Below, one piece after another: positions 2,668 through 44,760 of a stretch of DNA of 49,068 nt. The DNA is taken from positions 1 through 49,068 of the forward strand of contig DUEY01000017.1 of the NCBI GenBank assembly GCA_011174795.1. Reading direction: 5' to 3'. Made by a program: the position numbers and the translations under genes. Numbering within the stretch: position 1 is the stretch's first letter; every line of letters begins with the position of its first letter. The notes below the pieces were generated by a model. That model was not told the origin of the DNA. It did no database searches and was given only the letters and a program-made list of their open reading frames with translations. The stretch is from Dehalococcoidia bacterium (GTDB lineage: Bacteria > Chloroflexota > Dehalococcoidia > SZUA-161).

Positions 2668-2782
2668 CTGAACAACCTCCTATTTCGTATGCTTCTTAAT
2701 CAGTTGCTTTTAAAGTTACCGACGTTTCTTTATAGATAGACTAACGGACTATAGAGAATAACTTAGAGTGACTAAATACTAT

Positions 2783-2830
2783 AAAGATAGAGGCGACCAG
2801 CCCAACTTCTATCACGTCGCCTCTATCTTT
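2783..2830. repeat. perfect 15-bp inverted repeat (hairpin) in the metV1 leader
   Basis: AAAGATAGAGGCGAC (2783-2797) pairs perfectly with GTCGCCTCTATCTTT (2816-2830) across an 18-nt loop. On the plus strand the right arm runs into TTTTT, as in an intrinsic terminator, but no gene lies upstream in that direction. On the minus strand the hairpin lies in the untranslated leader between the promoter at 2936-2965 and metV1. It may be an attenuator, the end of a short leader RNA, or an insulator between the divergent arms. Confidence 0.6.
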
Positions 2831-2896
2831 TTGTCGCAAGGTCATAGATACAATTTCGTGCAGTGTATGCTTTGCTTAATCAGCAGCAGTTTCCAT

Positions 2897-2918
2897 AAAA
2901 AAAGAGCGTTGAAACGCT
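2897..2918 (-). terminator. small terminator-like hairpin with U-tract just after the metV1 transcription start
   Basis: Read on the minus strand, AGCGT-TTCA-ACGCT is a 5-bp stem with a 4-nt loop, followed by CTTTTTTT. It would begin only about 12 nt after the start site predicted from the promoter at 2936-2965. The stem is short, so it may pause or attenuate transcription rather than terminate it. Confidence 0.35.
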
Positions 2919-2935
2919 GCGTCCATACGTTAAGA

Positions 2936-2965
2936 ATTATACCCCGCGGGGGTATACAATGTCAA
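2936..2965 (-). promoter_or_regulatory. sigma70-type promoter for metV1-metF1
   Basis: On the minus strand TTGACA (plus 2960-2965) is followed by 18 nt and then a perfect TATAAT (plus 2936-2941). The spacer contains almost the whole palindrome TATACCCC-GCG-GGGGTATA, so a repressor bound there would block RNA polymerase. The transcript would start near 2929 and run through a leader of about 260 nt to metV1. Confidence 0.65.
2938..2956. promoter_or_regulatory. CsoR/RcnR/CstR-family-like operator palindrome
   Basis: TATACCCC (2938-2945), GCG, GGGGTATA (2949-2956) is a perfect 8+3+8 palindrome. G/C-tract palindromes flanked by TATA are typical operators of the CsoR superfamily, whose members sense Cu(I), Ni/Co, formaldehyde or persulfide. 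It overlaps the -10 and spacer of the metV1 promoter. No regulator of this family is encoded in the window, so the identification rests on operator shape alone. Confidence 0.5.
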
Positions 2966-3071
2966 CCTTAAGAATACGATACATAACACGACGGGTAGAA
3001 CAAATACATTAGCTTCGAAATTTGACTCCAATATATGTTGCCGTATTATTGCCGAGCGTTCTCCGATGATG

Positions 3072-3087
3072 TATACCCTAGGGTGGA
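3072..3087. promoter_or_regulatory. second, imperfect CsoR-family-like palindrome
   Basis: TATACCC-TA-GGGTGGA, with a perfect core ACCCTAGGGT at 3075-3084. It overlaps the -35 element of the predicted hydrogenase promoter. Its resemblance to the palindrome at 2938-2956 suggests that both arms of the divergent locus answer to the same regulator. Confidence 0.35.
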
Positions 3088-3112
3088 CATGAATTCGTAT
3101 TTGGAATATACT
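3084..3112 (+). promoter_or_regulatory. sigma70-type promoter for the hydrogenase-metVF operon
   Basis: TGGACA (3084-3089), 17-nt spacer, TATACT (3107-3112). A start near 3120 would leave a leader of about 95 nt before the small-subunit ATG at 3216. The -35 element overlaps an operator-like palindrome. Confidence 0.5.
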
Positions 3113-3215
3113 GATACTAGTACAGATGGAGGCGGTTTATTCTCTTTTTTTTGCCTGTTTGCAGCAATTGCAGAGCCCTTTATAGGAATTGCGCTATCTA
3201 AATATTGGAGGGATT

Positions 3216-4106
3216 ATGGCAAATATAAAGACCGAAGAATATCCTGTAATCTGGTTACAGGGTGCCACGTGCACAGGTTGTTCGGTATCAGTTCTCAACT
3301 CAGTCAGCCCCACCATTAAAAACGTGCTTGTCGACGAGGTCATTCCCGGCAAGCACGTTAATCTTAGATTTCAGGCCACTGTAATGGCTGGCGCCGGGGA
3401 ACTGGTAATCAAAGCACTCGAGGAGACATGGAAGGCGAAGAAAGGCGGCTACGTTCTGGTAATGGAGGGGGCAATACCTACGAAGGGGGATGGTGCCTAC
3501 GGCTCTATAGGAGAAGATAAGGAAGGTAAACCTGTATCCATAGACTCCAGGGTAGAGAACCTGGGCCGTGACGCACTTGCTGTGATAGCTCTCGGCACAT
3601 GCGCATCTTTTGGAGGCATACCGGCAGCTAAACCCAATCCGTCTGAATGCGTCAGCGTCGGACAGCTCTTCAAATCACGTAATGTGACTACTCCCTTAAT
3701 AAATGTCCCCGGCTGCCCTCCGCATCCCGATTGGTTCGTAGGAACAGTAGCCAGTGTACTGCTGAATGGTCTACCTAAAGAAGGCGAACTTGACGAATGG
3801 AGCCGTCCTAGGGCTTTCTACGGGCAGTTGATCCATGAGAACTGCCCGCGGCGTGCCTATTATGATGAGCAGAAGTTCGCTAAGAAGCTCAGCGACCCCG
3901 GCTGTCTGTATGAACTTGGCTGCAAGGGGCCGGTAACGCATGCCGACTGTCCGCTCAGGATGTGGAACAACGGCGTCAACTGGTGCGTCGCCTGCGGAGG
4001 GCTCTGCATTGGCTGTGCTGCTCCCGGGTTCCCTGACTTGGTTTCGCCAATGTATGCGAAGACAGCAGATATTACTTTGCCGAATATAGGTCAAAGGGTG
4101 GTTTAA
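3216..4106 (+). CDS. [NiFe]-hydrogenase small subunit without Tat signal
   Basis: A 296-aa iron-sulfur subunit that relays electrons from the NiFe site. Proximal-cluster ligands are visible as CTGC at residues 19-22, GTCASFGG and PGCPPHP. The distal and medial cluster region follows as HENCPRRAYY, CLYELGCKGP, DCPLRMWNNGVNWC and LCIGCAAPGFPD. This is the pattern of group 1/2 uptake-type enzymes rather than F420-reducing or bifurcating types. I start at ATG 3216 rather than the track start, because TTGGAGGG sits just upstream and the clusters follow at normal distance. There is no twin-arginine leader, so the enzyme should be cytoplasmic, unlike membrane-bound group 1 enzymes. It is followed by the large subunit after 4 nt and belongs to the hydrogenase-protease-metV2-metF2 operon. 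Confidence 0.92.
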   Translation: MANIKTEEYPVIWLQGATCTGCSVSVLNSVSPTIKNVLVDEVIPGKHVNLRFQATVMAGAGELVIKALEETWKAKKGGYVLVMEGAIPTKGDGAYGSIGEDKEGKPVSIDSRVENLGRDALAVIALGTCASFGGIPAAKPNPSECVSVGQLFKSRNVTTPLINVPGCPPHPDWFVGTVASVLLNGLPKEGELDEWSRPRAFYGQLIHENCPRRAYYDEQKFAKKLSDPGCLYELGCKGPVTHADCPLRMWNNGVNWCVACGGLCIGCAAPGFPDLVSPMYAKTADITLPNIGQRVV

Positions 4107-4110
4107 GAAA

Positions 4111-5670
4111 ATGGGCAAAATTGTAATCGATCCTATTACCCGTATCGAAGGACACCTGAAAGTTGAAGCGATGGTGGAGGGAGGAGAGGTAAAAGAGGCT
4201 AGAAGTTCAGGCACTCTGTTTCGTGGCTTTGAGATTATATTGCGAGGTCGTGATCCTCGTGACGCCAATCGGATAACTCAGCGTATCTGTGGAGTATGTC
4301 CTACGAGTCATTCCACAGCCGCTGCCCTGTGCCTGGACAGCGCATTCGGCCTTGGCGGTTCCATACCGGACAACGGCAGGCTTATACGCAACCTCATTCT
4401 AGGCGCCGCTCACATCGCCGACCATATCCTTCATTTCTACCACTTGACCGCTCTCGACTATGTAGATGTGACTAAGGTGGCTAAATACGATGGTAACGAC
4501 ACCACACTTAATTCGGTGAAGGATTTTATCGAACGTGGCGAACTTGGGCCTTTCGTGCCACGCTATGAAGGAGATTATCGTTTCCCGGCTGAGGTCGACC
4601 AGCAACTGGTAGGTCATTACATAGAGGCTCTTCGGATGCGGCGCAAGGCACAGGAGATGTGCGCCATATTTGCCGGGAAGATGCCGCATAATATGAGTAT
4701 CGTACCTGGCGGGGTCACTGAGATACCTACGGTAGATAAGATAGCTTCCTTCTTATGGAGGCTAAACGAGCTCAGAACCTTTATCGACAATGTCTACCTG
4801 CCGGATGTTCTGGCAGCGGCGGAGTTTTATAGCGACTACTTTGAGATAGGTGCCGGTTGCCGCAATCTTCTATCCTATGGCGGCTATGAACTCGATGGAA
4901 AAGACCCCGACCTTACCAGGAGGAAGCGGCTCTTCAAACAGGGTACAGTCAGCGCTGAACTGAAGCTGGGTACCCTGGACACCGGTTACATCACCGAGGA
5001 GGTAAAGCATTCGTGGTATGAGGATTCCACCAGCGGCCGCAAGCCTACCCAGGGTGAGACTATGCCCAAAGAGGGCAAGAGCGGAGCTTACTCGTGGATA
5101 AAGTCGCCGCGATACGATGGCCGGGTCTACGAGGTAGGGCCCCTAGCGCGGGTGATGGCCACCTACCTTGCTGGTGACGAGAAGGTGAAGTCGATTGTAG
5201 ACCCAGCTCTGGCGAAGTTCAAGGCAGGACCCGAGGTTATGTTCTCGACGCTGGGACGACACCTGGCGAGGGCAGTCAGCTGTAAGGTGGTGGCGGATAC
5301 CATGCCAGGCTGGCTGCTCGAACTCAAACCGGGTGAGCCTGTTTATCAGGAGTACGAGATACCTGAAGAGTCGACAGGCATGGGCCTGGTCGACGCTGCC
5401 AGGGGCGCACTGGGACACTGGATCGAAATTAAAGATAAGCGGATAGCCAATTACCAGTGTGTTGTTCCCAGTACATGGAATATGTCGCCTCGTGATGATA
5501 AAGACCAACCCGGTCCCTTAGAGCAGGCAATCACAGGCACAAGGATAAAAGATGAGGCAAATCCCTTCGAGATTGTACGTATTGTTCGGTCTTTCGACCC
5601 CTGTCTTGCCTGCGCTATACACGTTATTACCCCCAAAGGAAGAATATTAGGCAAGTACCGCGTGTCATGA
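4111..5670 (+). CDS. [NiFe]-hydrogenase large (catalytic) subunit
   Basis: A 519-aa NiFe-binding subunit that splits or forms H2. Both Cys pairs that hold the metal are intact: RICGVC (Cys60, Cys63) and DPCLACAIH (Cys498, Cys501, His504). A 15-residue tail follows His504 and is expected to be clipped by the endopeptidase encoded next. The N-terminal VIDPITRIEGHL is the usual start of the family. The gene follows the small subunit by 4 nt with an AGGGTGG ribosome binding site. No cytochrome b, twin-arginine or Hdr/diaphorase subunit follows; instead the operon continues with protease, metV2 and metF2. This suggests the electrons go to the MetVF pair. Nickel insertion and cyanide-ligand genes (hyp) are not in the window. 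Confidence 0.95.
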   Translation: MGKIVIDPITRIEGHLKVEAMVEGGEVKEARSSGTLFRGFEIILRGRDPRDANRITQRICGVCPTSHSTAAALCLDSAFGLGGSIPDNGRLIRNLILGAAHIADHILHFYHLTALDYVDVTKVAKYDGNDTTLNSVKDFIERGELGPFVPRYEGDYRFPAEVDQQLVGHYIEALRMRRKAQEMCAIFAGKMPHNMSIVPGGVTEIPTVDKIASFLWRLNELRTFIDNVYLPDVLAAAEFYSDYFEIGAGCRNLLSYGGYELDGKDPDLTRRKRLFKQGTVSAELKLGTLDTGYITEEVKHSWYEDSTSGRKPTQGETMPKEGKSGAYSWIKSPRYDGRVYEVGPLARVMATYLAGDEKVKSIVDPALAKFKAGPEVMFSTLGRHLARAVSCKVVADTMPGWLLELKPGEPVYQEYEIPEESTGMGLVDAARGALGHWIEIKDKRIANYQCVVPSTWNMSPRDDKDQPGPLEQAITGTRIKDEANPFEIVRIVRSFDPCLACAIHVITPKGRILGKYRVS

Positions 5671-5701
5671 TTAAATACCATGCAAGTAAGAGCTTAATTA
5701 G

Positions 5702-6172
5702 ATGAAAAAAACCGTGGTTCTCGGTGCCGGCAATGAACTGTTGGGGGATGAGGGTGTCGGGGTTCATGCAGTTCGTATATTGCATGAGGAACTGCCGCTT
5801 TCTCATACCGACATCGAGGTTATTGATGGAGGAACATCCCCTGATATATGCCACCTCATTCAGGGCGCTTATAAGCTTGTAATAGTAGATGCTGTGAAGG
5901 GTGGCTTTGCGCCGGGGACGATCTACCGCTTTACCCCAGACCAGATAGCTCAGGAAAATATAGTGACCACCTCGGTACACCAGGTTGGCATTCTGGAAGC
6001 TCTCAAGATGATGGAGTTAATGGGTGATAAACCCGAGGAGACCGTTATCATAGGGATAGAGCCCTCGGATATAGCGGTAGGGCTTGAGCTATCGCAGGAG
6101 TTGCTGGCCCGAATGCCTGAGTTCATTCAGATTATCTGCGGAGAGATTGGTTTATCTCTTGATACGAACTAA
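5702..6172 (+). CDS. hydrogenase maturation endopeptidase (HyaD/HycI family)
   Basis: A 156-aa protease that removes the C-terminal tail of the large subunit after nickel insertion. The family start VLGAGNELLGDEGVG (with the metal-sensing Glu/Asp residues), the IDGGTSPD segment, VDAVKGG, and SVHQVGILEAL with the conserved His are all present. Length is normal for the family. It lies 31 nt behind the large subunit and immediately before metV2, so it is dedicated to this hydrogenase. Confidence 0.92.
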   Translation: MKKTVVLGAGNELLGDEGVGVHAVRILHEELPLSHTDIEVIDGGTSPDICHLIQGAYKLVIVDAVKGGFAPGTIYRFTPDQIAQENIVTTSVHQVGILEALKMMELMGDKPEETVIIGIEPSDIAVGLELSQELLARMPEFIQIICGEIGLSLDTN

Positions 6173-6198
6173 ACCGGAAATGAAAAGAGGGTATAAAT

Positions 6199-6843
6199 AT
6201 GCTGACTACTGAGCAAAAACCACTTGAGCAACTGCTGGAGTACCTGGATAGAGAAAAAAGTGTTTTTCTCATTGGTTGCAGGGGATGCGCTGAGGGCTGC
6301 CATACTGGTGGCGAACAGGAAGTCCTTGATATGAAGCAAAGACTGGAAGAAGCGGGTAAAACCATAACCGGCACGTCCCTTATCGACTTCATGTGCAATG
6401 AGAGCCTGGTCAGGATGACATTGCAGGCGCATGAGGATGCTATCCTATCTGCGGAATCTTTGCTGGCTCTATGCTGCGGCATTGGAGTTCAGGCGACTTC
6501 CTCGGTAGTCGACAAGATTGTCCACCCCGGGTGCAACACTGTTTCTATGGGCGGTCGGCATGGGGAATGGAGGGAGGGCGAACGTTGTATGGAGTGCGGC
6601 GATTGTGTTCTGGAGTTTACAGGAGGTATTTGCCCCATTGCCAGATGCTCAAAGATGCTTCTTAACGGTCCTTGCGGGGGCTCATCCGACGGAAAGTGCG
6701 AGGTCTCACCAGATGTGCCTTGCGCCTGGCAGTTAATAATCGAGCGATTAACGAAGCTGGGCCGTCTGGATAAGTTAGAGAGGATCGTGGCACCGAAAGA
6801 CTGGAGCGTTAGCCTTATGTCTGGCGCAGCAAGCAAACGATAG
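6199..6843 (+). CDS. metV: MetV-like iron-sulfur/zinc partner of methylene-THF reductase (copy 2)
   Basis: A 214-aa paralogue of the protein at 1948-2667. It has the same Cys layout: LIGCRGCAEGCHTGGEQE, LCCGIGVQ, HPGCNTVSMGG, CMECGDCVLEFTGGICPIARCSKMLLNGPCGG, CEVSPDVPCAWQ. GAGGG lies ahead of the ATG. Its place between the hydrogenase protease and metF2 (12 nt gap) makes it the likely electron link between hydrogenase and MetF. That link is inferred from gene order; no such complex is named here from knowledge. The C-terminus is shorter than copy 1 and lacks its extra roughly 25 residues. Confidence 0.85.
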   Translation: MLTTEQKPLEQLLEYLDREKSVFLIGCRGCAEGCHTGGEQEVLDMKQRLEEAGKTITGTSLIDFMCNESLVRMTLQAHEDAILSAESLLALCCGIGVQATSSVVDKIVHPGCNTVSMGGRHGEWREGERCMECGDCVLEFTGGICPIARCSKMLLNGPCGGSSDGKCEVSPDVPCAWQLIIERLTKLGRLDKLERIVAPKDWSVSLMSGAASKR

Positions 6844-6855
6844 AGAGGAAATGCG

Positions 6856-7788
6856 ATGAAGTCAAACAGCAAGCTGGAAAAGATTCTAGAGGGAGGGCAC
6901 TTCGCTATTACCGGCGAGCTTGGCCCTCCGGCGAGCGCTAACCCTGAGGTAATAAGAAAGAAAGCTAAATATTTACGGGGAAACGTGGACGCTGTGAATG
7001 TCACCGACGGTCAGACCGCTGTAGCTCGCATGGCAAGCTGGGCAGCCTGTCTTCTAGGGAAAGAGGAAGGGCTGGAGCCGACGGTGCAGATGACATGCCG
7101 TGACCGCAATCGCATTGCCCTCCAGATGGATGTGCTGGGCATCGCTGCCCTAGGAATCAATAACCTACTGTGCCTTACCGGCGACCACCAGGTCTTCGGA
7201 AACCACCCCACAGCGAAGGGCGTTTATGACCTCGACTCCATCCAGCTTATCAAGATGGTGAAAGATATGAGGGACGAGAAGAAATTCCAGTGCGGCGATG
7301 ATATGGATGTTGAACCTCGTCTCTTCATCGGGGCTGCAGCCAACCCGTTCGCTGACCCCTTTGAGTTCAGGGTTGTTCGCTTAGCTAACAAGGTAGCTGC
7401 AGGTGCCGATTTCATTCAAACCCAGATTATCTACAATGTGGAGAAATTCGCTCAGTGGATGGAGGCGGTTCGTGACAGGGGGTTGGATAGAAAGGTGAAG
7501 ATTCTCGCGGGTGTAGCCCCGATCAAATCGGTAGGTGCAGCCCGTTATATGCAGACCAAAGTCCCGGGTATGGATGTGCCAGAGGCCGTTATCGAGCGCT
7601 TGAAAGGCGTGCCTAAGGAGGATGTTCCCAAAGAGGGTATCAGGCAGTGCGTGGATATCATAAATCAGATACGCGAGATTAAAGGAGTGGCTGGAATACA
7701 TCTTATGGCTATAGAGTGGGAGGAGGTAGTCCCCGAAATTGTTGAACAGGCAGGACTGCTACCCAGACCTCAGGTCTATCAAGCATAG
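6856..7788 (+). CDS. metF: methylenetetrahydrofolate reductase, MetF family (copy 2)
   Basis: A 310-aa MetF with GELGPPAS, NVTDGQTAVARM, TCRDRNRIALQMD, LCLTGDHQVFG, FIQTQIIYN and HLMAIEWEEVVPEI. It clearly belongs to the same family as copy 1 but is diverged (for example GDHPVLG against GDHQVFG, and a longer insert near FQCGDDMDVEP). It is the last gene of the hydrogenase operon, with GAGAGGAAATGCGATG as start context. It reduces methylene-THF; in this setting H2 may be the electron source through the hydrogenase and MetV2. No terminator with a clear stem was found after it. Confidence 0.9.
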   Translation: MKSNSKLEKILEGGHFAITGELGPPASANPEVIRKKAKYLRGNVDAVNVTDGQTAVARMASWAACLLGKEEGLEPTVQMTCRDRNRIALQMDVLGIAALGINNLLCLTGDHQVFGNHPTAKGVYDLDSIQLIKMVKDMRDEKKFQCGDDMDVEPRLFIGAAANPFADPFEFRVVRLANKVAAGADFIQTQIIYNVEKFAQWMEAVRDRGLDRKVKILAGVAPIKSVGAARYMQTKVPGMDVPEAVIERLKGVPKEDVPKEGIRQCVDIINQIREIKGVAGIHLMAIEWEEVVPEIVEQAGLLPRPQVYQA

Positions 7789-27113: not shown

Positions 27114-29321
27114 TTAGTCCAGAAGGACCCAGAGCGGGCACATCACCAGCGTTACTGTGGCTATGAGTTTAGCTACAATGTGCAGTGAGGGCCCCACGGT
27201 ATCCTTAAGGGGGTCGCCAGCGGTATCACCAGCTACACCGGCAGCGTGAGCATAGGAACCTTTGCCGAGGACATTCCCTGCTTCATCCTTAAGCTGTCCG
27301 TCCTCAATGTACTTCTTAGCATTATCCCAGGCACCGCCGCCGTTATTCATGAAGGAGGCCACCAGAATAGCAGTAAAAGTCCCTACTATCAGGAAGGCGC
27401 CTACCGCCATCGGGGCATCGTAGTCAGGAACGAATCTGAAGATGACACCGATAGCTATGGGAAGAAGGACGGGAAGCAGTGCGGGAGCAATCATTCCCCG
27501 TAATGCCGCCCTCGTAGTTATGTCAACTGCCCTACCGTAGTCAGGTCTGGAGGTGCCCTGCATGATACCTGGGTCAGCCTTAATCTGGCGTCGCACCTCC
27601 TCGATTATCTTGCTTGCAGCTCCACCCACCGACTTAAGCGCCCAGGAACTGAAAAGGAAGACCATCAGAATGGCAAGGATCGCGCCGATGAGAACCTCGG
27701 GTAATACCAGGTTCACATCGAACAGCTCCCCTTCCCTGTGCTGGAACAGCAGTACCCTATCGAAATAGGCCTGGAAGAGCAGAAAGCCAGCCAGTCCTGC
27801 CGAGACCATGGCGTATCCCTTGGTAAGAGCTTTGGTAGTATTGCCGGTAGCATCGAGATGGTCGGTAACCCTTCGTATCTCAGAACCGGCACCGGTGAAC
27901 TCGTTGATTCCATTGGCGTTATCCGTTATCGGGCCAAAGGTATCCTCAGCCAGTATAAATGGACAGGTCATCAGCATACCCATGGTAGCTATTGCTGTGC
28001 CATAGGCGCCGCTCATCCACCAATCTACCTCCAGGCCGGAGGTCGTGCCCAGCCAGTAGGAGAGCCCCATAGCAGCACAGATGACGAGTGCCGTCGCCAT
28101 GACTGTCTCAAAGCCCACCGAAAGACCAGTTACGAATGTAGTTGCCGGTCCCGTGCGGCAGGCCTCTGCGATTCCTCTTGTGGGGCCGAATCTCGCTTCA
28201 GTGTAGTACTGCGTAATATACAGTATCAGTACGCTGGCCCCTATACCAACAAAACCAGCCAGCATAAGCCACTGCCACCCGGAGCACATGTCGTTGAACA
28301 TCTGCCAGCAGGTGAAGGCCATCGCTGCGATACAGAGAATCAGCGACACATAATAGCCGCGGTTGAGGGCATTCATGGGATTCTCATCTTCACCTCTACT
28401 GCGTATCGCCACTGTACCGATCATGCTGGCGAGAATGCCAAAGCCACGGATAACGAGTGGGAAGAGTACCCAGCCTACAGCGGCGACGGGGCCAAACTTG
28501 TCCAATGAGACTGCATAAAGAGCCACTCCTATTATCATAGCGCCGATGTTCTCGGCTGCCGTCGATTCAAACAAATCAGCGCCACGACCGGCACAGTCAC
28601 CGACGTTATCACCAACCTGGTCGGCGATTACCGCTGCGTTGCGGGGGTCATCCTCGGGAATCCCCGCCTCGACCTTACCAGCGAGGTCAGCACCCATATC
28701 AGCAGCCTTTGTATAGATACCACCGCCAAGCTGAGCGAAAAGGGCAACCATGCTGGCACCAAAGCCAAATCCGACTATAAGGTGAGGAGCGATATCAGGA
28801 TTGTTAGCTCCTCCAAAAATGTAAAATATCGCCGTTACTCCCAGCAGGCTCAGTATCACGATGAGGAAACCGGATACTGCCCCGCCGCGTATCGCTACCT
28901 TGATGGCTTCGTTTGTGCCGCGGTGAGAAGCTGCTGCACAGCGAACGTTGGATTTCACCGCAATCCACATACCGACAATACCGGAGACACAAGAACAAAG
29001 GGAGCCGGCGAGAAATGCCACCGTGGTCCTCCATCCCAGGCCGAATGCCGATACCCCCAGCCTCTCCAGTTCATCCTCGCTGCTCAGCATTCCGAGTATA
29101 ACGCCGATTATCACTCCTACTACCAAGGCTGTTATACCGATAGTGGAGTACTGGCGCCTGATAAAAGCCCAGGCGCCCTCAGTGATCCTGGCGTTAACAT
29201 CCTGCATTTCCGCTGAGCCCGGATCACTGCGCAGGATATACCTTATCAGGCCAATAGAGAAAATAAGGCCTACGCCGCATCCTACTGCTACCACCCAGAA
29301 AATTCCCGGAATCTGGGACAT
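27114..29321 (-). CDS. hppA: membrane-bound pyrophosphatase, K+-independent H+-pump type
   Basis: A 735-aa integral membrane enzyme with about 16 spans that couples pyrophosphate hydrolysis to ion pumping. The substrate loop DMGADLAGKVEAGIPEDDPRNAAVIADQVGDNVGDCAG and the second set of acidic motifs (NANGINEFTG; GDTAGDPLKDTVGPSLH) are complete. The GNTTKA motif has Lys where K+-dependent enzymes have Ala, so this copy should be K+-independent and pump protons. AGGAGG precedes the start. It differs in class from the neighbour at 29442-31478. Such pumps save energy from biosynthetic PPi in energy-limited anaerobes. Confidence 0.93.
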   Translation of the reverse strand: MSQIPGIFWVVAVGCGVGLIFSIGLIRYILRSDPGSAEMQDVNARITEGAWAFIRRQYSTIGITALVVGVIIGVILGMLSSEDELERLGVSAFGLGWRTTVAFLAGSLCSCVSGIVGMWIAVKSNVRCAAASHRGTNEAIKVAIRGGAVSGFLIVILSLLGVTAIFYIFGGANNPDIAPHLIVGFGFGASMVALFAQLGGGIYTKAADMGADLAGKVEAGIPEDDPRNAAVIADQVGDNVGDCAGRGADLFESTAAENIGAMIIGVALYAVSLDKFGPVAAVGWVLFPLVIRGFGILASMIGTVAIRSRGEDENPMNALNRGYYVSLILCIAAMAFTCWQMFNDMCSGWQWLMLAGFVGIGASVLILYITQYYTEARFGPTRGIAEACRTGPATTFVTGLSVGFETVMATALVICAAMGLSYWLGTTSGLEVDWWMSGAYGTAIATMGMLMTCPFILAEDTFGPITDNANGINEFTGAGSEIRRVTDHLDATGNTTKALTKGYAMVSAGLAGFLLFQAYFDRVLLFQHREGELFDVNLVLPEVLIGAILAILMVFLFSSWALKSVGGAASKIIEEVRRQIKADPGIMQGTSRPDYGRAVDITTRAALRGMIAPALLPVLLPIAIGVIFRFVPDYDAPMAVGAFLIVGTFTAILVASFMNNGGGAWDNAKKYIEDGQLKDEAGNVLGKGSYAHAAGVAGDTAGDPLKDTVGPSLHIVAKLIATVTLVMCPLWVLLD

Positions 29322-29350
29322 CTAACCCTCCTTTCTTATCGTATATTTAA

Positions 29351-29397
29351 ATAAGCACAAACCAAATGTCTCAAGAAAACGTTTGGTTCATGCTTAT
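29351..29397 (-). terminator. imperfect hairpin between the two hppA genes
   Basis: ATAAGCA-ca-AACCAAA (29351-29366) pairs with TTTGGTT-ca-TGCTTAT (29382-29397). Read on the minus strand it lies about 45 nt after the stop of the second hppA and is followed by TTTAAAT. It probably separates the two pyrophosphatase transcripts. Confidence 0.5.
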
Positions 29398-29441
29398 CGA
29401 TCCGGATAGAAAACGAAAAACTCATTGCCCCATATTACAAG

Positions 29442-31478
29442 CTAAGAGACTACAAGTACAAATAACGGCACGAAGATAACTGCGACCTTGCCCACAACCT
29501 TAATCAGGATATTGAGTGACGGGCCGGCTGTATCCTTAAACGGGTCGCCAACGGTATCACCCGATACAGCTGCTTTATGGGCAGGGCTGCCCTTGCCTCC
29601 TAAATGCCCGGCCTCTATATATTTCTTCGCGTTATCCCAGGCCCCTCCGGCGTTGGCCATCAGTATCGCCAGAACAAAGCCGCTTACCAGCACCCCTGCC
29701 AGTAACCCCGCCAGAGCCTCCAGCCCCAGGCCAAAACCTAGTGCGAGCGGCACGATTATCACCAGTATTCCCGGAGTTATCATGCCCTTCAGAGCCTTTC
29801 GGGTAGTTATGTCAACGCAATGGGAGTAGTCGGCTGTAGCAGTGCCTTCCATAAGACCTGTTATCTCATGGAATTGCCTCCTGACCTCCTTGCACACTGC
29901 ATAAGCACCATAGCTCACTGCCCGCATCGACAGAGCGGAAAAAAGGAAAGGTAGCATGGCGCCGATGAACAAGCCAACCATCACTTCTGGCTCAGTGAGG
30001 CTTACGATTATCGATTCGCCTGTCTCCTTCTCAGCCACAGCGAAGAAGGTAGCCAGCCAGGCTAAGGCCGCCAGCGCTGCCGACGATATAGCAAACCCCT
30101 TGCCTATGGCAGCTGTGGTGTTGCCCACCGAGTCCAGGGCTTCAGTACGTTCTCTGACCTCTTTGCCCAGTCCACCCATTTCCGAGATTCCCGCGGCATT
30201 ATCGGCTATCGGCCCGTAGCAGTCTATAGCCAGTAGCATCCCCAGTGTGATTAACATGCCCTCAGCAGCTATGGCTATACCGAAAAGTCCGGCAGCCTTG
30301 TAAGCAAGCCAGGTCGCGATGGCGACGAGGATTATGGGCACCACGGTGCTGAACATGCCGACGGAGAGCCCCTGGATAATATTAGTGGCAGCGCCCATCT
30401 CGCTTACTCGCGCTATACCCTTAACAGGGCCTCTCTCCGAGGTGAAATACTCTGTCGATATCCCGATCAGGAACCCACAGACTAAACCGATTATCACTGC
30501 ATAGAAGACTCCGATTTCATCGGAGCCCAGATAGAACCATACCAGCAGGAAACCGCCTATAATCATCAATATGTTACTGGCGTACACCCCCCGGTTCATA
30601 GTCGAGCGAGCCTTTGCTGTCTGCTCTTCGAAGCTTCCTCTGGCCTCAGGAGGCCTGACGAAGAAGGTTCCAATTACTGCGGCAACCACTCCCACTGCAC
30701 CCAGAAGCAGCGGAAAAAAAGCCCCCTTAGCGGCTCCAAGTACGGCAGGAGCTATGCCCAGCACCATGGATGCTGCTATTGCGGATACGTAGGATTCGAA
30801 AAGGTCGGAGCCCATCCCGGCAATGTCTCCTACGTTATCACCCACATTGTCCGCTATCGTCGCAGGATTTCTGGGGTCATCCTCCGGTATCCCCGCCTCC
30901 ACCTTCCCCACCAGGTCGGCACCGACATCAGCGCTCTTAGTGAATATTCCACCGCCGACCCTGAGGAATAGGGCCACTATCGAGGCGCCAACAGCATATC
31001 CCAGCCAGACATGACTGTCATCGAACAAAATTACAATAATAGCCAGGCCCAGCAGCCCCAGGCCGACGACACAGAACCCCATTACCGCTCCCCCAGAGAA
31101 GGCTATCTTGAGTGCCTGCGCCCAACTCGATATCGCCGCGGTAGCCGTTCTCGAATTTGCCCTCACGGCGATACTCATGCCCAAGTACCCTGCCAGTGCC
31201 GAGGTTAGTGTCCCGACGAGGTACGCCAGACCAACCCATCCCCTAGGTTCCAACGCTGCAGCGAAAATCGCAGTCATGACGACGGTGACAATGGCTAGAG
31301 CCCGAAATTCGTCGTGCAGGAAAGTGCTGGCGCCTTCCTGAATCGCTGAAGCTATCTCCCTGACCTTATCCGAACCTCTATCCTGACGGAGAATGTAAAG
31401 CGCCAGATAGCCGGCGAAAACCAGCGCAAGAAGTCCAGCGAGAAAGACGGGTATCATTTCGACACGTGCGTAGTCCAT
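29442..31478 (-). CDS. hppA: membrane-bound pyrophosphatase, K+-dependent type (Na+ or H+ pump)
   Basis: A 678-aa paralogue of the previous enzyme. The loop DVGADLVGKVEAGIPEDDPRNPATIADNVGDNVGDIAG and the C-terminal GDTVGDPFKDTAGPSLN are intact. Here the motif reads GNTTAA with Ala, the mark of K+-dependent pyrophosphatases, a group that contains both Na+ and H+ pumps. Which ion is pumped cannot be settled by eye. Two pyrophosphatases of different classes side by side suggest that the cell uses both Na+ and H+ gradients, or works under differing K+ levels. The start is the track ATG, with only a weak GGGG upstream. Confidence 0.93.
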   Translation of the reverse strand: MDYARVEMIPVFLAGLLALVFAGYLALYILRQDRGSDKVREIASAIQEGASTFLHDEFRALAIVTVVMTAIFAAALEPRGWVGLAYLVGTLTSALAGYLGMSIAVRANSRTATAAISSWAQALKIAFSGGAVMGFCVVGLGLLGLAIIVILFDDSHVWLGYAVGASIVALFLRVGGGIFTKSADVGADLVGKVEAGIPEDDPRNPATIADNVGDNVGDIAGMGSDLFESYVSAIAASMVLGIAPAVLGAAKGAFFPLLLGAVGVVAAVIGTFFVRPPEARGSFEEQTAKARSTMNRGVYASNILMIIGGFLLVWFYLGSDEIGVFYAVIIGLVCGFLIGISTEYFTSERGPVKGIARVSEMGAATNIIQGLSVGMFSTVVPIILVAIATWLAYKAAGLFGIAIAAEGMLITLGMLLAIDCYGPIADNAAGISEMGGLGKEVRERTEALDSVGNTTAAIGKGFAISSAALAALAWLATFFAVAEKETGESIIVSLTEPEVMVGLFIGAMLPFLFSALSMRAVSYGAYAVCKEVRRQFHEITGLMEGTATADYSHCVDITTRKALKGMITPGILVIIVPLALGFGLGLEALAGLLAGVLVSGFVLAILMANAGGAWDNAKKYIEAGHLGGKGSPAHKAAVSGDTVGDPFKDTAGPSLNILIKVVGKVAVIFVPLFVLVVS

Positions 31479-31651: not shown

Positions 31652-32800
31652 CTATTTCGCCAGCCCCTGCGTGTACTGGAAGCCCTTCCCCTCAGTCTTT
31701 ATAGAAGGAGCAATTACAATCTCGGCTTGATGCATCTCCCTCACGTTTCGTGCCCCGCAGACACCCATAGAGGTGCGCAGTGCTCCAACAAGGTTCTGAG
31801 TTCCATTAGTTACCGAGGTGGGGCCGAAGAGGGTTTGCTCCAGCGAGCCGTTAACCGCCACCCTTATCCGGGTGCCCCTTGGCAGCGCCTCATGCGGGGT
31901 GGCCATCCCCCAGTGATTGCCCCGCCCCGGCGCCTCTTCAGTTTGAGCGAATATCGAGCCCAGCATCACACCATCAGCGCCGCAGGCAAATGCCTTACAT
32001 AGGTCGCCCCCATTTCGTATGCCGCCGTCGGTAACTATAGGAATGTACCGCCCGCTTGCCCTGAAATAATCATCGCGTGCAGCAGCACAGTCCATAGTTG
32101 CCGCCGCCTGGGGCACTCCAACACCTATCACCTCCCTGGTGGTGCAAGCGGCACCCGGGCCCACGCCGACAAGAACACCGTGTATGCCGGTTTCCATCAA
32201 CTTGCGACATGCGCTGTAGCTCACACAGTTGCCCACAATAACAGGGACCGGCAGTTGTTTTACGAGTTCGGAAAAGATGAGGCCTCTATAGCTCTTCGAC
32301 ATATGGCGGGCAGTGGTGACAGTCGACTGCACTACCAGAATATCCATTCCCGCCTCAGCGGCAAGCGGAGACATTCTCTTGGTATTGGCTGGGGTGAGAG
32401 AGACGGCACAGACCCCACCCGCATCCTTGATTGCCTTAATTCGGTCGCCGATCAGGTTGTCCTTTATTGGTTCAGAATAAATCCGCTGGAGAACCTGGGT
32501 TACCTTCTCAGGTGGTTCATTGGCAATCTCATCTAAAACGCCTTCGGGGTCAGCATAGCGTGTTTGCAAGCCCTCAAGATTAAGAACCGCGAGGCCTCCC
32601 AGCTTGCTCATGGCAATAGCGAATCTCACATCAACCACACCGTCCATAGCAGATGCCAGGATGGGGATAGGGAAGTTAAGCCGCTCAATGACGAGGCTGA
32701 CATCCGTCTGGTCGGGATTGATGGTTATATCACCAGGGACGATAGCAATTTCTTCAAAGCCGTATGTTTGCCTTAATTTCTTGTATTGGGAATACTCCAT
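31652..32800 (-). CDS. IMP dehydrogenase-like protein, GuaB3 family
   Basis: A 382-aa TIM-barrel protein of the IMP dehydrogenase/GMP reductase superfamily. The catalytic Cys loop GVGPGAACTTREVIGVGVPQ, the phosphate-binding IVTDGGIRNGGDLCKAFACGADGVMLGSIFA and the N-terminal PILASAMDGVVD are present. CBS domains are absent, and the N-terminus EYSQYKKLRQTYGFEEIAIVP together with the length fit the GuaB3-type proteins of actinobacteria and Chloroflexota rather than canonical GuaB. It may convert IMP to XMP, but GuaB3-type proteins are only partly characterised. It is divergent from rsmI. Confidence 0.85.
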   Translation of the reverse strand: MEYSQYKKLRQTYGFEEIAIVPGDITINPDQTDVSLVIERLNFPIPILASAMDGVVDVRFAIAMSKLGGLAVLNLEGLQTRYADPEGVLDEIANEPPEKVTQVLQRIYSEPIKDNLIGDRIKAIKDAGGVCAVSLTPANTKRMSPLAAEAGMDILVVQSTVTTARHMSKSYRGLIFSELVKQLPVPVIVGNCVSYSACRKLMETGIHGVLVGVGPGAACTTREVIGVGVPQAAATMDCAAARDDYFRASGRYIPIVTDGGIRNGGDLCKAFACGADGVMLGSIFAQTEEAPGRGNHWGMATPHEALPRGTRIRVAVNGSLEQTLFGPTSVTNGTQNLVGALRTSMGVCGARNVREMHQAEIVIAPSIKTEGKGFQYTQGLAK

Positions 32801-38771: not shown

Positions 38772-39746
38772 ATGGGTCATTCCAGAAAGTCGCTATTCGC
38801 ACCTGTCGAAAGGGAACTCAGTCTCGTAGAGAAGAGCATCAGGGCTATAGCCGATGTTGAATACCCTGACCTGGCGGAGCTACTGGGGTATATCGTGAAC
38901 AGCGGGGGCAAGCGCGTTCGCCCCGCGCTGACACTGCTCGCAGGCAAGCTCCAGAACGACCCCGACCTCGATATACTTGTCCCTGTAGCAACCGGTGTCG
39001 AGTTGCTGCATACCGCCACCCTGGTGCACGATGATACTATCGACCTTTCACCGAGACGCCGTGGCAAGCCAACGGTTGCCAGTATCTGGGGCTGGGGTAT
39101 AGCCACCCTTGCCGGAGATTACCTCTTCTCCCAGGCAGCGGAACTGGTCTCCCGGGCCAGCAATATCAGAGCAGACAGGCTCTTCGCTCAAACTCTCATG
39201 GCTTTATGTATGGGCGAACTGCAGGGTAACTTCAGCAGCTATGACCAGAACCAGACACGCCAGAGCTATTTCAGGAATATCGGAAATAAGACTGCCTCCC
39301 TGTTTGCCATGGCTACAGAATCAGGGGCGATAGTCACCGCGGCTTCGGAGGAGACCATACAGGCGCTGAGGAGCTATGGCTATAAACTGGGAATGGCTTT
39401 TCAGGTCGTCGATGACATCCTGGATTTCACCGCCGATGAGGAAGAACTGGGCAAACCGGTGGCAAGCGACCTGCGCCAGGGAAACTTGACCCTGCCAGCG
39501 ATACTGCTCAGGGAACAGCGCCCTCATGATAACCCGATTGAGGCTATATTCGAAAACAGGCAAAAGGAGCGTAATCTCAAGCTGGCCATCAAGATGATAC
39601 GCGGCTCCGAGGTCGTCCCCGAATGCTACCGCATCGCCCGGGACTTCACGGCTGAGGCATGTACTGCCCTTGAGATATTCCCCGAAAGCCCTTACCGGCA
39701 GTCTCTCGTGGAGATAGCTAACTACGTCGTCGAACGCCAGGAGTAG
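38772..39746 (+). CDS. polyprenyl diphosphate synthase (trans-isoprenyl)
   Basis: A 324-aa head-to-tail prenyl chain synthase of the IspB/HepT type. The first Asp-rich motif is LVHDDTIDLSPRRRGKPT and the second FQVVDDILDFTADEEELGKP. The N-terminal SGGKRVRPALTLLAG is typical. Chain length cannot be stated with certainty, but the layout fits quinone side-chain or long-chain synthases. It lies 18 nt behind the RND gene and is convergent with recO. The Tes-like radical SAM gene is near (40536-42041), so a lipid link is possible but unproved. Confidence 0.9.
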   Translation: MGHSRKSLFAPVERELSLVEKSIRAIADVEYPDLAELLGYIVNSGGKRVRPALTLLAGKLQNDPDLDILVPVATGVELLHTATLVHDDTIDLSPRRRGKPTVASIWGWGIATLAGDYLFSQAAELVSRASNIRADRLFAQTLMALCMGELQGNFSSYDQNQTRQSYFRNIGNKTASLFAMATESGAIVTAASEETIQALRSYGYKLGMAFQVVDDILDFTADEEELGKPVASDLRQGNLTLPAILLREQRPHDNPIEAIFENRQKERNLKLAIKMIRGSEVVPECYRIARDFTAEACTALEIFPESPYRQSLVEIANYVVERQE

Positions 39747-39768: not shown

Positions 39769-40521
39769 CTACCGTAGATGGTCGAGGAACTCCAGTGATT
39801 TCACCTCGCGCTCCAGAATATAGCGGATATACCACCTGAGCAGTTGCTCCACCTCTCTGGATATGGCTCTACCCAGGCGCAGCCGGCTTGCCGATGCAGG
39901 CGAATTGCTGAGCAGGAACCGCATTACCTTGAGTGCGTCGACCGAGATAGGTCGAGTCGCGGGCTCACTCCCAGCGCATTTAGAACAGAGGACCCCTCCG
40001 CCACTGGCACTGAACAGGTTTCTCTCCGGAGCGAGCGGCGATTTACAATTCAGGCACTGATAGAGCTCGGGTTGGTAGCCGAGATGGCTGAGAAGATGAA
40101 GTTCGAAGTGCCTGAGTACGGTATCGCTGTCGCGCGCCTCGCAAAGCCAGAGCAGGTCATCTAACAGCAGCCTGTAAACGGGATAATGCTCAGCCCCTTC
40201 CACGGTAAACTGGTTTACCAGTTCCGCCATGTAAAGGGCACAGCTAATATTTCTGAGGTCGCTTTTCAGAGGAAGAAAGCTCTCTATTGTCTGGCTCTGG
40301 GTAATGACGTCCAGGGTCTGGCCGTGGGCCAGGAGCAGAGCGCTCTGTGTCAGGAGGTCGAGGTGACCGCCGAGCTTGCTCTTGGGCCTGCGTACTCCCC
40401 TCGCAACTGCCCGGATCTTGCCCAAGTTCGGCGTATAGAGGGTGATGATGCTGTCCGCTTCGCCCAGGTCGTTCCGCTTGAGAACAATCGCCTCGGTCTT
40501 ATAAACACGTGGCTTTGCCAT
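39769..40521 (-). CDS. recO: DNA repair protein RecO
   Basis: A 250-aa recombination mediator that loads RecA with RecR. The N-terminal OB-fold start VYKTEAIVLKRNDLGEADSIITLYTPNLGKIRAVARGVRRPKSKLGGHL is classic. A zinc-binding site CLNC...CSKC is present in the C-terminal part (LYQCLNCKSPLAPERNLFSASGGGVLCSKC). It is the last gene of the dnaX-ybaB-recR-radical SAM-recO operon, so RecR and RecO are encoded together but split by a lipid-type enzyme. Confidence 0.9.
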   Translation of the reverse strand: MAKPRVYKTEAIVLKRNDLGEADSIITLYTPNLGKIRAVARGVRRPKSKLGGHLDLLTQSALLLAHGQTLDVITQSQTIESFLPLKSDLRNISCALYMAELVNQFTVEGAEHYPVYRLLLDDLLWLCEARDSDTVLRHFELHLLSHLGYQPELYQCLNCKSPLAPERNLFSASGGGVLCSKCAGSEPATRPISVDALKVMRFLLSNSPASASRLRLGRAISREVEQLLRWYIRYILEREVKSLEFLDHLR

Positions 40522-40535
40522 CGCAGTTAAGAGGG

Positions 40536-42041
40536 TTACGTCACCTGTTCAGGGGCTTTCGCTATAATATCCAGGTTTTCTTCCGCCAGTTCTCCCTGTC
40601 CGTCGGACAGGGCTAACCTATGGATGCTGTTCATGGAGCAGAAGGGGATCAGTCGGGGCTTGGAATCCTTGCCGATAACGCCGAAGTGAAGTGCGCAATT
40701 CTGGACCCTGTCAAGGTCGAAGTTGTAGGGGTCCATAAAATGCATGATACCTATGGTGAGCCACTGCCTCGGGACCCGCTCTGTAAGCACAGCCCTGATG
40801 GATTTCCTTCCCCTGGTCATGAATAGAATGGGCAGGAGCTTGAGCCACAGCCTGGGGCTGACATACCTTATCAGGCCAACAGCTAGTGCCCACATTATCG
40901 CAGGCCTCGACTTATTGAGTTCGAATACCCTCCTCATTTTAGCGTAGAATCTCTCGTTATCTATGTAGCGGGATACAGGGTCAAGCTTTCCCTTAGACCG
41001 CTCGACGATAGCTATCAGCCCGCAGTGGGGATGAACGCAGAAATCATGGTTTTGCCCGCCCTTAGTCAGCATTCTGGCCAGCGTCTGGTTCATCGGTAAT
41101 GTGAAAAAATCGCTCCTCTTGATTTCACCACCGGTTTGCTCCTCGGCCAGTCTCGCGACATCCGAGTTAGTTATCCGCATTTCCTTCAACCTCGTGCAGT
41201 CTATCCTCCCCGAGAAGCTGACCGGTTGGAAGACAACGAACTTGACCACATCCGGATTGTCCGCAGCATACCTTATGATATCGCCGACCTGATGATCATT
41301 GATACCCTTCGCCAGAGTGGGTATGAAAGCAATCTTGTCATAGCCTATCTTTCTCGCGTTTTCAATGACCTTCTGCTTCATCGGCCACAGGTTGCGACCT
41401 CTCGTTTGCAAATAGGGCTCGGAGGTAACGCCGTCGAACTGAAGGTAGAGCCATACATTGACATCGCGTATCTTCTTAAAGTAATCGATATCCTCCGCAA
41501 GCCTGAGCCCGTTGGTCATGATAAGGATATAGTCGAAACCGAGTTCTCTCTCAATTTGTATTATCTGGGGCAGGTCATCCCTGAGTGTAGGTTCGCCGCC
41601 GCTGTTGCCTACCCCCCTGACCCTGAGGGGATAGTTGTTTTTCTGCGTGTACTGCAGAATCGCTCGTATCTGTTCGATACTCAAGTCTGTAGATGTATCG
41701 CTCTCCCCAGCGCGGGCGAAACACATCGGGCAACGCAGGTTGCATCTACTGGTTATCTCCATAATCATGAGGGTTGTATGTGTCTGGTGATTGCGACACA
41801 GGCCACAGTCGAGGGGGCAGCCAAGCTTGGATTCCCTGGGCTGATGTAATCCGGTGCCGTGGTCTCTGAACCTCTCGGCCCTTACATACTCAGCGTAATC
41901 ACTCCAGTAGACATCCTCAAAGCTCCCGTGCTCGGGGCAGCTTTTCCTCATTACAACCTGACCATCGATTTCCCATAGCTCGGCATCTAATACTCTCAGA
42001 TCCTCGGGGCAAATTGACTTCGTGTTCTTAATAAATTGCAT
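40536..42041 (-). CDS. radical SAM protein resembling tetraether lipid synthase (Tes / MJ0619 family)
   Basis: A 501-aa protein. The radical SAM triad is CNLRCPMC (Cys100, Cys104, Cys107). Around it are further Cys sets that match the archaeal Tes/MJ0619 family: KSICPEDL and SCPEHGSFEDVYWSDY at residues about 8-48, CPLDCGLCRNHQTHTTL at 75-91, and late Cys in FCVHPHCG and IPFCSMN. Tes couples two archaeol chains by C-C bond formation between biphytanyl ends; bacterial homologues may make membrane-spanning lipids. A hydrophobic segment lies near WALAVGLIRYVSPRLWLKLLPILFM. The gene sits in a recombination operon between recR (15 nt upstream) and recO (14 nt downstream). The exact substrate is not known; related radical SAM enzymes outside Tes are possible. 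Confidence 0.7.
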   Translation of the reverse strand: MQFIKNTKSICPEDLRVLDAELWEIDGQVVMRKSCPEHGSFEDVYWSDYAEYVRAERFRDHGTGLHQPRESKLGCPLDCGLCRNHQTHTTLMIMEITSRCNLRCPMCFARAGESDTSTDLSIEQIRAILQYTQKNNYPLRVRGVGNSGGEPTLRDDLPQIIQIERELGFDYILIMTNGLRLAEDIDYFKKIRDVNVWLYLQFDGVTSEPYLQTRGRNLWPMKQKVIENARKIGYDKIAFIPTLAKGINDHQVGDIIRYAADNPDVVKFVVFQPVSFSGRIDCTRLKEMRITNSDVARLAEEQTGGEIKRSDFFTLPMNQTLARMLTKGGQNHDFCVHPHCGLIAIVERSKGKLDPVSRYIDNERFYAKMRRVFELNKSRPAIMWALAVGLIRYVSPRLWLKLLPILFMTRGRKSIRAVLTERVPRQWLTIGIMHFMDPYNFDLDRVQNCALHFGVIGKDSKPRLIPFCSMNSIHRLALSDGQGELAEENLDIIAKAPEQVT

Positions 42042-42056: not shown

Positions 42057-42668
42057 TCACATCTCCCGGCGGCTCTCCAGAGCATGGGTAAGAGTGACTT
42101 CATCGGCATATTCCAGGTCACCGCCCACAGGCAGTCCGCGGGCAAGCCTTGTGACCTGAACACCCAAGGGCGTTAGCAGTTTCTGGATGTACATGGCCGT
42201 CGCCTCTCCCTCGAGATTGGGGTTGGTGGCCAAAATAACCTCTTTCACCGCGCCTGTGTTCATACGCCCGAGAAGTTCCTTTATCTTCAGGTCGTCCGGG
42301 CCGATGCCATCCATGGGAGAGAGCACTCCGTGGAGCACGTGGTACAGCCCTTTGTATATCCCGGTACGTTCCAGTGCCAGGATGTCCAGAGGCTCTTTAA
42401 CAACACAGATAATGCTGTGGTCTCGTTCATCGCTGGAACAAATGGCGCAGGGGTCGGCATCCGTGATGTTCTGGCATGAGGAGCAGAGGACGGTTTTATC
42501 TTTGACAGCGATGATTGCCTCGGCCAGGGCTTTCGCTTCCGCTTCGGGCATTCGCAGCAGGTAGTAAGCGAGACGTGCCGCACTCTTCGGCCCGATGCCA
42601 GGCAGTTTGCCGAACTCCTCGATTAGGCGGGATACCGGTTCGACAGCGGGTATACGCTCTATTCTCAA
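42057..42668 (-). CDS. recR: recombination protein RecR
   Basis: A 203-aa ring-forming mediator protein. The helix-hairpin-helix [22 protein letters not shown], zinc finger [16 protein letters not shown], and Toprim domain ([42 protein letters not shown]) are intact and in order. The start is a TTG with AAAGG upstream (GAGAAAGGTTTCCAGATTTG). It lies 68 nt behind ybaB. The dnaX-ybaB-recR order is conserved widely in bacteria. Confidence 0.95.
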
Positions 42669-42736: not shown

Positions 42737-43045
42737 TTACAATAAGCCCGGTAGATTAAGACCCCCAGTAATGGCTCCGAGCTGGTCGGCGGCAAGCTTC
42801 TGCGCTTTCTCCATACCTTCATTGATTGCAGCTATAACCAGATCCTCGAGCATTCCCACGTCATCAGGATCAACTGCCTCTGGCGAGATCTTTATGGAGC
42901 AAAGCTTCTGATGGCCGTTGACAACGACGGTAACCGCGCCTCCACCGGAGCTAGCCTCAACCGTGGTCTTTTCCAGTTCCTCCTGTATCTTTGCCATTTT
43001 CGCCTGCATTTGCTGCGCCTGGCGTATAAGCTTCCTGTTCAGCAT
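42737..43045 (-). CDS. YbaB/EbfC family nucleoid-associated protein
   Basis: A 102-aa DNA-binding protein. The start RQAQQMQAKMAKIQEELEKTTVEASSGGGAVTVVVNGHQKLCSIKISPEAV is the family signature, and the C-terminus ends in GLNLPGLL, also typical. It follows dnaX after 5 nt and precedes recR, the usual arrangement. YbaB proteins bind DNA as dimers and shape gene expression. Confidence 0.95.
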   Translation of the reverse strand: MLNRKLIRQAQQMQAKMAKIQEELEKTTVEASSGGGAVTVVVNGHQKLCSIKISPEAVDPDDVGMLEDLVIAAINEGMEKAQKLAADQLGAITGGLNLPGLL

Positions 43046-43050
43046 CTTCC

Positions 43051-44760
43051 CTACTCCTCTTCGATAACTCTGGCACCCATCTTCTCGGCTGCCTCCACCA
43101 CCGGATTCTTTCCAGACTGCTTCGGTTTATTGTCCTTTTGCTTCGGAATGAGAATACAACGCACGTGGTACGGCACCCCGAATACCTCCTGCAGCTGCTT
43201 CTCCACAAGGTGGCGGTATTTTGGGTTCTCAACTTTGCTTTTGTGGAAATCAGCGTAGAAACCAAGGACAATAGTATCGCCCTCGAGTTCTACAGCCTCG
43301 CAGGATCTCCTGAGGAGGGCATCCAGGTTTCCGCTTGAGCCTACCCCCCGGCAGGAATTGATGAACTCATTCCAGCGCTGGCGTATCTGCTCAATGCTGT
43401 GGGTGGTTTCTCTCATGCCGACATCAGCGGCCTCTATCGCAGGCACCTCATCCTGCGCAGTAACCTCACCCTCAGCATCCCCTGCCACAGGAGCCTCTTC
43501 CCCTTCTTTCTGCACAGGCACTTCATCCTCAACCACAGAGGGCACATCCGCCTGTTCCGTTGCGGATACCTCAACCTCAGCTGTTTTTCGCGCTGAAGCT
43601 GTCGTTTCCACTGCTGCCTGTTTTATGCCAACTGTCGGCGTGACACCAGCCCCACCCTTTGGGACAACCCTTTCCGATTTCTCTCCAGCGGACAGTACGC
43701 AATCAACCAGCGCAAGCTCAAGGGAAATCGTCGACTGCGGGTCGGTGCGGAAGTCAATCTGAGCGAAGAGTTTAACCATCTTCGATAGGTCGATCATAGG
43801 CGCATCAGCTACAAGTCTTTTCATCTCAGACACCACTTCGCGGGGAAAATCAGCGGTATCGGCCGCGCCGGCCTTAACGATGAGCAGCCCCCGCAGATAC
43901 TCCACCAATCCCTGATTGAACTGGCGGAGATCGATACCATCGGCTGCGACGCTGTTTATCGTTTCCAGTCCGGCGGCGACGTCTTTATTCAGGATATGCT
44001 CCGCTAACTGGCTGATACGCTGGTCGCTGCTCAGTCCCAGCTTCTCATTAACCTGGTCCGGGCCGAAATCAGGCCCATAGTTGAGCATAAGCTGCTCCAG
44101 CAGATTCTCCGCGTCCCGGAGGCTGCCGGTAGTTGCCTTAGCTATAAGCGCCAGGGCCTGCGTCTCTGTATGAATGCCCTCCTGTTCACAGATCTCCTGG
44201 AGCTTGTTCACCACGTCTTTCTGAGTGAGACGGCGAAAGTCAAACCTTTGACATCTGGACATGATAGTCAGTGGCACCTTGTGCGCCTCGGTGGTCGCCA
44301 GTACAAAAATAGCGTGGGGCGGAGGCTCCTCCAGCGTCTTGAGCAGAGCGTTGAACGCAGCCTCAGTGAGCATGTGCACTTCATCTATAATGTAGACCTT
44401 GTATCTGGCTGCATTGGGAGCGAAATTTATCTTCTCGCGGAGGTCTCGTATCTCGTCGATACCCCGGTTCGAGGCACCATCTATCTCAATCAGGTCCAGC
44501 GCTCGCCCCTCATTCATTGCCTGGCATATATTGCATGCATTGCACGGCTTCTCTTCAGCTTCGCTGAGGCAATTTATCGCCTTAGCCAAGATCCTGCCCG
44601 TGCTGGTCTTACCCGTGCCCCGGGGCCCACAGAAGAGATAGGCATGTGCTATCCGACCTGTTTTAATAGCGTTGGCCAGAGTGCGTGTGACCTGCTCCTG
44701 CCCCACTACCTCGGCCAGCGTTTGTGGCCGCCACTTTCGATAGAAGACCTGTGAGGACAT
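43051..44760 (-). CDS. dnaX: DNA polymerase III subunit gamma/tau
   Basis: A 569-aa clamp-loader ATPase. Walker A is GPRGTGKTSTGR (residues about 45-56), the zinc module CLSEAEEKPCNACNIC follows, then YIIDEVHML (Walker B) and the SRC motif in IMSRCQRFDFRR. After about residue 370 there is a Val/Glu/Ala-rich acidic linker (VSATEQADVPSVVEDEVPVQKEGEEAPVAGDAEGEVTAQDEV), and a C-terminal tau-like part. I saw no obvious A-rich slippery site that would produce a short gamma form. A good promoter lies 54 nt upstream. It leads the operon. Confidence 0.95.
   Translation of the reverse strand: MSSQVFYRKWRPQTLAEVVGQEQVTRTLANAIKTGRIAHAYLFCGPRGTGKTSTGRILAKAINCLSEAEEKPCNACNICQAMNEGRALDLIEIDGASNRGIDEIRDLREKINFAPNAARYKVYIIDEVHMLTEAAFNALLKTLEEPPPHAIFVLATTEAHKVPLTIMSRCQRFDFRRLTQKDVVNKLQEICEQEGIHTETQALALIAKATTGSLRDAENLLEQLMLNYGPDFGPDQVNEKLGLSSDQRISQLAEHILNKDVAAGLETINSVAADGIDLRQFNQGLVEYLRGLLIVKAGAADTADFPREVVSEMKRLVADAPMIDLSKMVKLFAQIDFRTDPQSTISLELALVDCVLSAGEKSERVVPKGGAGVTPTVGIKQAAVETTASARKTAEVEVSATEQADVPSVVEDEVPVQKEGEEAPVAGDAEGEVTAQDEVPAIEAADVGMRETTHSIEQIRQRWNEFINSCRGVGSSGNLDALLRRSCEAVELEGDTIVLGFYADFHKSKVENPKYRHLVEKQLQEVFGVPYHVRCILIPKQKDNKPKQSGKNPVVEAAEKMGARVIEEE

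Follow-up and report, generated by a model that had tools for sequence, protein, structure and literature searches.

The window, a stretch of 49,068 nucleotides from a Dehalococcoidia bacterium (assembly GCA_011174795.1, contig DUEY01000017.1), carries a gene for a radical SAM protein of the tetraether synthase (Tes) clade, here called tes, as the fourth gene of an operon-like run in the order dnaX-ybaB-recR-tes-recO. The run and its neighbour are made up as follows.

42737..44760, minus strand: ybaB and dnaX, the start of the operon-like run (open reading frames and conserved order)
42057..42668, minus strand: recR, 15 bp upstream of tes (TIGR00615, over cut-off)
40536..42041, minus strand: tes, coding for the Tes-clade radical SAM protein of 501 aa; start codon ATG at 42041
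39769..40521, minus strand: recO, 14 bp downstream of tes (TIGR00613, over cut-off)
38772..39746, plus strand: polyprenyl diphosphate synthase, convergent conserved neighbour of the tes run

We take the two genes at 42737..44760 to be ybaB and dnaX from recognition of their sequences. The open reading frame at exactly 40536-42041, singled out in a first-pass annotation of this DNA, is real: the list of open reading frames has it on the minus strand, there are 8 stops in the interval on the plus strand, and chance is excluded by the match of its product to MJ0619 and by orthologues. The recR-tes-recO order is kept in all members of the window's family with a readable contig (8/8), and longer contigs of this family add bacterial nuo genes or a metG-rsmI side. 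No lipid-synthesis gene lies beside tes in the window's family, where its neighbours are DNA repair genes. The polyprenyl diphosphate synthase, for which the best models are HepT and solanesyl synthase with neither over cut-off, is likely to serve quinone or isoprenoid supply and not to be specific to lipid fusion. In family f111, 6 of 8 genomes have tes directly behind an MscS mechanosensitive channel gene, and the remaining 2 have it next to rsmI-metG. Across f111 and the GTDB copies the MscS gene lies upstream of tes on the same strand at L053 and L055, where Pfam identifies it, and at L170, L171 and L173-L176, where it was identified by sequence similarity; this pairing is a hint, and not proof, of a membrane role for the tes product.

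In a phmmer search against the PDB the protein matched MJ0619 (7TOL) with E = 1.2e-114, the next family being MoaA at 1.8e-9, and it is 42% identical in alignment to MJ0619, a GDGT-MAS/Tes. Its AlphaFold model (pLDDT 83.8, pTM 0.87; input alignment of 48 sequences) compares with 7TOM at a Z of 52.8 and an rmsd of 2.2 over 461 aligned residues, with the next entry at a Z of 20. The identity as a Tes/MJ0619-like protein that the first-pass annotation had proposed has strong support in its sequence, its fold and the tree. With Tes/GDGT-MAS (MJ0619; Saci_0703; MA_1486) the protein shares the full-length fold, the radical SAM motif, both auxiliary ligand sets and the labile Met, but it differs in its bacterial host without GGGP synthase, in the replacement of Cys12 by Asp and, in the window's family, of Tyr459 by Phe, and in its score with the NCBIfam Tes model NF045702 (449 bits by hmmscan, 448.4 in the genome search), which falls short of the curated cut-off of 450. 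Because one rubredoxin ligand is replaced and the score lies below this cut-off, we describe the protein as a Tes-clade member by homology and not as a proven Tes. The features that bear on its chemistry are the following.

41898..42029, minus strand: N-terminal rubredoxin-like domain, residues 5-48 (MJ0619 alignment, residue table, Pfam Zn_ribbon_HMPTM)
41787..41819, minus strand: N-terminal auxiliary [4Fe-4S] ligands C75, C79, C82 and H85 (aligned to the MJ0619 ligands, PMC9433317)
41721..41744, minus strand: radical SAM cluster motif C100-x3-C104-x2-C107 (CX3CX2C; alignment and residue table)
41019..41033, minus strand: H337-x-H-C340-G341, invariant in 48 sequences, with a putative Cys ligand of the C-terminal auxiliary cluster
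40638..40745, minus strand: C-terminal auxiliary cluster region with M433, C449, F453 and C468 (alignment, residue table, conservation)

MJ0619 holds three [4Fe-4S] clusters and one rubredoxin-type iron (PMC9433317). Residues C75, C79, C82 and H85 align with its C73, C77, C80 and a His, while M433 corresponds to the labile Met439 and F453 to Tyr459 (both PMC9433317). C340, C449 and C468 are probable ligands of the C-terminal cluster, roles that are assigned from invariance, Met439 being the ligand taken from PMC9433317. Within the clade there is no variation in the radical-SAM ligands, in either auxiliary set or in M433, and nearly all members retain the SAM-contact residues F108, R214, Q272 and S275. 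At the position of Tyr459 the window's own family has Phe, and the related families have Tyr; as the MJ0619 variant Y459F is still active, like Y459L and M439A (PMC9433317), the natural Phe453 is no argument against catalysis. The blocks KSICPED, SCPEHGSFEDVYWSDY and CPLDCGLCRNHQTHTTL, which had been noted besides CxxxCxxC and read as marks of the archaeal family, are all present in the protein. In KSICPED, though, the archaeal CPxC pattern is broken, its second Cys being Asp14. A check of the cluster-binding residues gave a divided answer: the radical-SAM set and both auxiliary sets are kept, but the rubredoxin site departs from C-x2-C-x20-C-x2-H and reads C11, D14 (= MJ Cys12), C35 and H38. 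Position 14 is Asp in 17 of the 18 Chloroflexota clade members and Val in the sister archaeon L059, and as such electron delivery in the clade may differ from that in MJ0619. A Cys at this position in L173 (G410), which is nested in the Chloroflexota clade, seems to be a return to the CPxC motif of archaea.

MJ0619 consumes two SAM for each bond that it forms and abstracts hydrogen from the end of the tail; its lipid intermediate is bound to sulfur, as would fit storage on the C-terminal cluster (PMC9433317). By homology the present protein would be an O2-sensitive radical SAM enzyme working in the same way. One SAM would be cleaved at the C100/C104/C107 cluster, and the 5'-deoxyadenosyl radical would abstract hydrogen from the methyl group that ends a lipid tail. 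The C-terminal cluster (M433, C340, C449, C468) would then store the carbon radical through an S-C bond, and reaction with another SAM and another tail would give an sp3-sp3 C-C bond. Iso-C15 chains joined tail-to-tail in this manner would yield iso-diabolic acid, the brGDGT backbone. On balance we think that the protein probably couples lipid tails on non-isoprenoid lipids, with its catalysis, substrate and product all read by analogy. The substrate is most likely to be fatty-acyl or alkyl G3P lipids, given carriers that lack GGGP synthase and an own genome that has PlsY, GpsA and FabH, and the product would then be diabolic-acid- or brGDGT-like; membrane-spanning lipids in the carriers are plausible. 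Coupling of the brGDGT type has already been proposed for bacterial Tes (PMC8941075, PMC10087280). The alternative that survives best is a repurposed enzyme, which would still activate the tail by hydrogen abstraction and would make no membrane-spanning lipid, its job being instead to attach either sulfur or some small group, or to form a link inside a single lipid molecule. Such a change would sit well with the Asp in place of a rubredoxin ligand, with the long stem branch of the Chloroflexota clade (0.58-0.66), and with the S-lipid intermediate that MJ0619 itself yields when SAM is limiting (PMC9433317), but the catalytic cluster ligands and M433 do not vary within the clade, nor does the HFMDPYNFD region within the window's family, and we consider repurposing unlikely, though a competitor to be taken seriously.

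Tail coupling on non-isoprenoid lipids is in agreement with what the carriers encode. GGGP synthase (PF01884, PcrB cut-off) was over cut-off in 0 of 17 carriers, the own genome included, in searches of nine genomes (8 carriers) and then of nine further carriers (0/9 and 0/9). In the own genome PlsY and GpsA are encoded side by side and FabH is over cut-off, and together with the missing GGGP synthase this points to host lipids built from fatty acids on G3P. The G1PDH model PF13685 is uninformative, as it matches 13 of 14 controls. PF09989 gives 1 to 4 matches per genome, mostly in frames of ~1400 aa and also in genomes without tes, and because NCBIfam names the two such proteins of the own genome acyl-CoA dehydratase activases, these matches do not establish PlsA/Ger. 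A host with a lipid pathway of archaeal type, making true archaeal isoprenoid GDGT, would suit the position of the protein among archaeal Tes in the tree and the polyprenyl diphosphate synthase nearby, but PlsY and GpsA speak against it, and with GGGP synthase absent at the PcrB cut-off from all 17 carriers we reject an archaeal pathway and regard this explanation as very unlikely.

The tes gene is found in 8 of 9 genomes of the window's family (G004 is apparently without it), with orthologues at 73-78% identity in 7 related genomes, and in 9 more carriers from two other families of the class, for a total of 17 of the 393 class genomes sampled. Nine other members of the order that were searched have no tes at this level, the plasmid records hold homologues of 27-31% identity only, and the Thermotoga maritima control genome gave no match to the Tes model. 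In a GTDB scan, with motifs taken from an alignment of the clade plus MJ0619 and thus favouring archaeal-type matches, the matches after the Chloroflexota clade were almost all archaeal, the best at 46-48% identity; one protein labelled Patescibacteria (L121) falls among the archaeal rows. With the Tes model the other Chloroflexota homologues sampled do not exceed 345 bits, against 449 here, and the protein is distinct from this divergent type, a "bacterial Tes homologue" that is common among Chloroflexota. TrsS/HMPTM-like proteins (NF045646) do resemble it in domain order, including the N-terminal ribbon and the auxiliary Cys blocks, and the TrsS model gives it 331.1 bits (cut-off 490, missed), as might be expected if it were an ordinary member of that divergent radical SAM group. 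The higher score with the Tes model argues against this, as do the separate branch formed by the divergent proteins (support at least 99/97) and their labile Met position, which is H, K, R, I or Q in most of them; such an identity is largely refuted by score and tree and is hardly credible. Some carriers have a second, divergent Tes/TrsS-like homologue (L017 in G002, L018 in G006). Loose Tes counts in Chloroflexota therefore mix two kinds of protein, and earlier counts made with loose thresholds may join true Tes-clade members with divergent ones.

The first-pass annotation had suggested a phylogeny with characterised Tes proteins as a check, and the clade does nest within archaeal Tes, both in the trees and by the AU test. 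Both of two ML trees recover the Chloroflexota proteins as a single clade (support 100/100), sister to the Aenigmatarchaeota protein L059 (support 99/99), in an archaeal part of the tree that includes Bathyarchaeota, Methanomethylicota and Asgard archaea. The trees have a long-branched outgroup and contain no acidobacterial Tes, a group reported to be 40-42% identical to MA_1486 (PMC8941075). An archaea-only clade is rejected by the AU test (p 0.001; second run p 0.0008). Holding the archaea minus L059 apart gave p 0.037 with L059 in the tree; with L059 removed p was 0.33, so that a sister position to the archaea is allowed, and in the tree without L059 the clade stays among archaea with weak nodes. 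The ribosomal S8e gene adjoins tes on the L059 contig, which indicates that this archaeal contig is genuine. An archaeal origin of the clade is thus favoured, not proven, and these comparisons make an old archaea-to-bacterium transfer into a Dehalococcoidia ancestor likely, with the direction leaning partly on L059. Contamination of the bin by an archaeal gene, which archaeal nearest relatives outside the group might suggest, is refuted and of negligible probability, because tes shares one contig and an operon-like run with bacterial dnaX, recR, recO and nuo genes, and the recR-tes-recO arrangement with its nuo or metG-rsmI side recurs in independent assemblies, including a single-contig genome. 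Flanking tes at L172/L054 are an STT3-like oligosaccharyltransferase (recognised by eye) and an archaemetzincin (Peptidase_M54), both archaeal in flavour; these genes and tes are possibly part of a larger transferred block. The full scenario, in which Dehalococcoidia acquired an archaeal Tes by transfer and adapted it, its rubredoxin site now altered, to the fusion of fatty-acyl or alkyl tails of bacterial lipids, is one that we put forward tentatively.

A bacterial Tes member, to which the first-pass annotation had drawn attention, is not new in itself: a report of 2022 described 456 homologues from bacteria (PMC8941075), and homologues occur in 111 Chloroflexota MAGs from the Black Sea (PMC11868695). 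What is unusual here is the nesting with archaeal Tes combined with a first Cys block that is short of one canonical ligand, and in the literature searched (without supplementary files) we found no description of an archaeal-type Dehalococcoidia clade or of the altered rubredoxin site. The present protein is like the published bacterial Tes (PMC8941075; Solibacter, PMC10087280; Black Sea Chloroflexota, PMC11868695) in being a bacterial Tes homologue with a proposed brGDGT-like product, but most Chloroflexota homologues found here, at 345 bits or less, are far more divergent and branch outside archaeal Tes. Mss, the bacterial membrane-spanning lipid synthase (PMC13274423 and work cited there), is alike in its predicted tail-to-tail coupling of bacterial chains, but is a separate bacterial family. 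The question of which organisms make bacterial tetraethers in anoxic water and sediment stands behind climate proxies that are in wide use (PMC11868695, PMC13274423). The carriers can now be named as two Dehalococcoidia families and one further genome with the archaeal-clade protein, and D14 and M433 are sequence marks by which the clade can be told from look-alikes. If our reading is true, specific anaerobic Chloroflexota families would supply brGDGT-like lipids in anoxic settings without having been recognised as a source, and one enzyme of an archaeal lipid pathway would have crossed the lipid divide without the rest of that pathway.

We also note several other genes in the window. NiFe-hydrogenase-like genes at 1021-7788, with MetF/MetV-like pairs on either side (named by eye), suggest an anaerobic metabolism of the Wood-Ljungdahl type. 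Two adjacent membrane-pyrophosphatase-like genes of 735 and 678 aa form an apparent tandem pair at 27114-31478 on the minus strand, and a GuaB3-family IMP dehydrogenase-related protein, over its curated cut-off, is encoded at 31652-32800 on the same strand.
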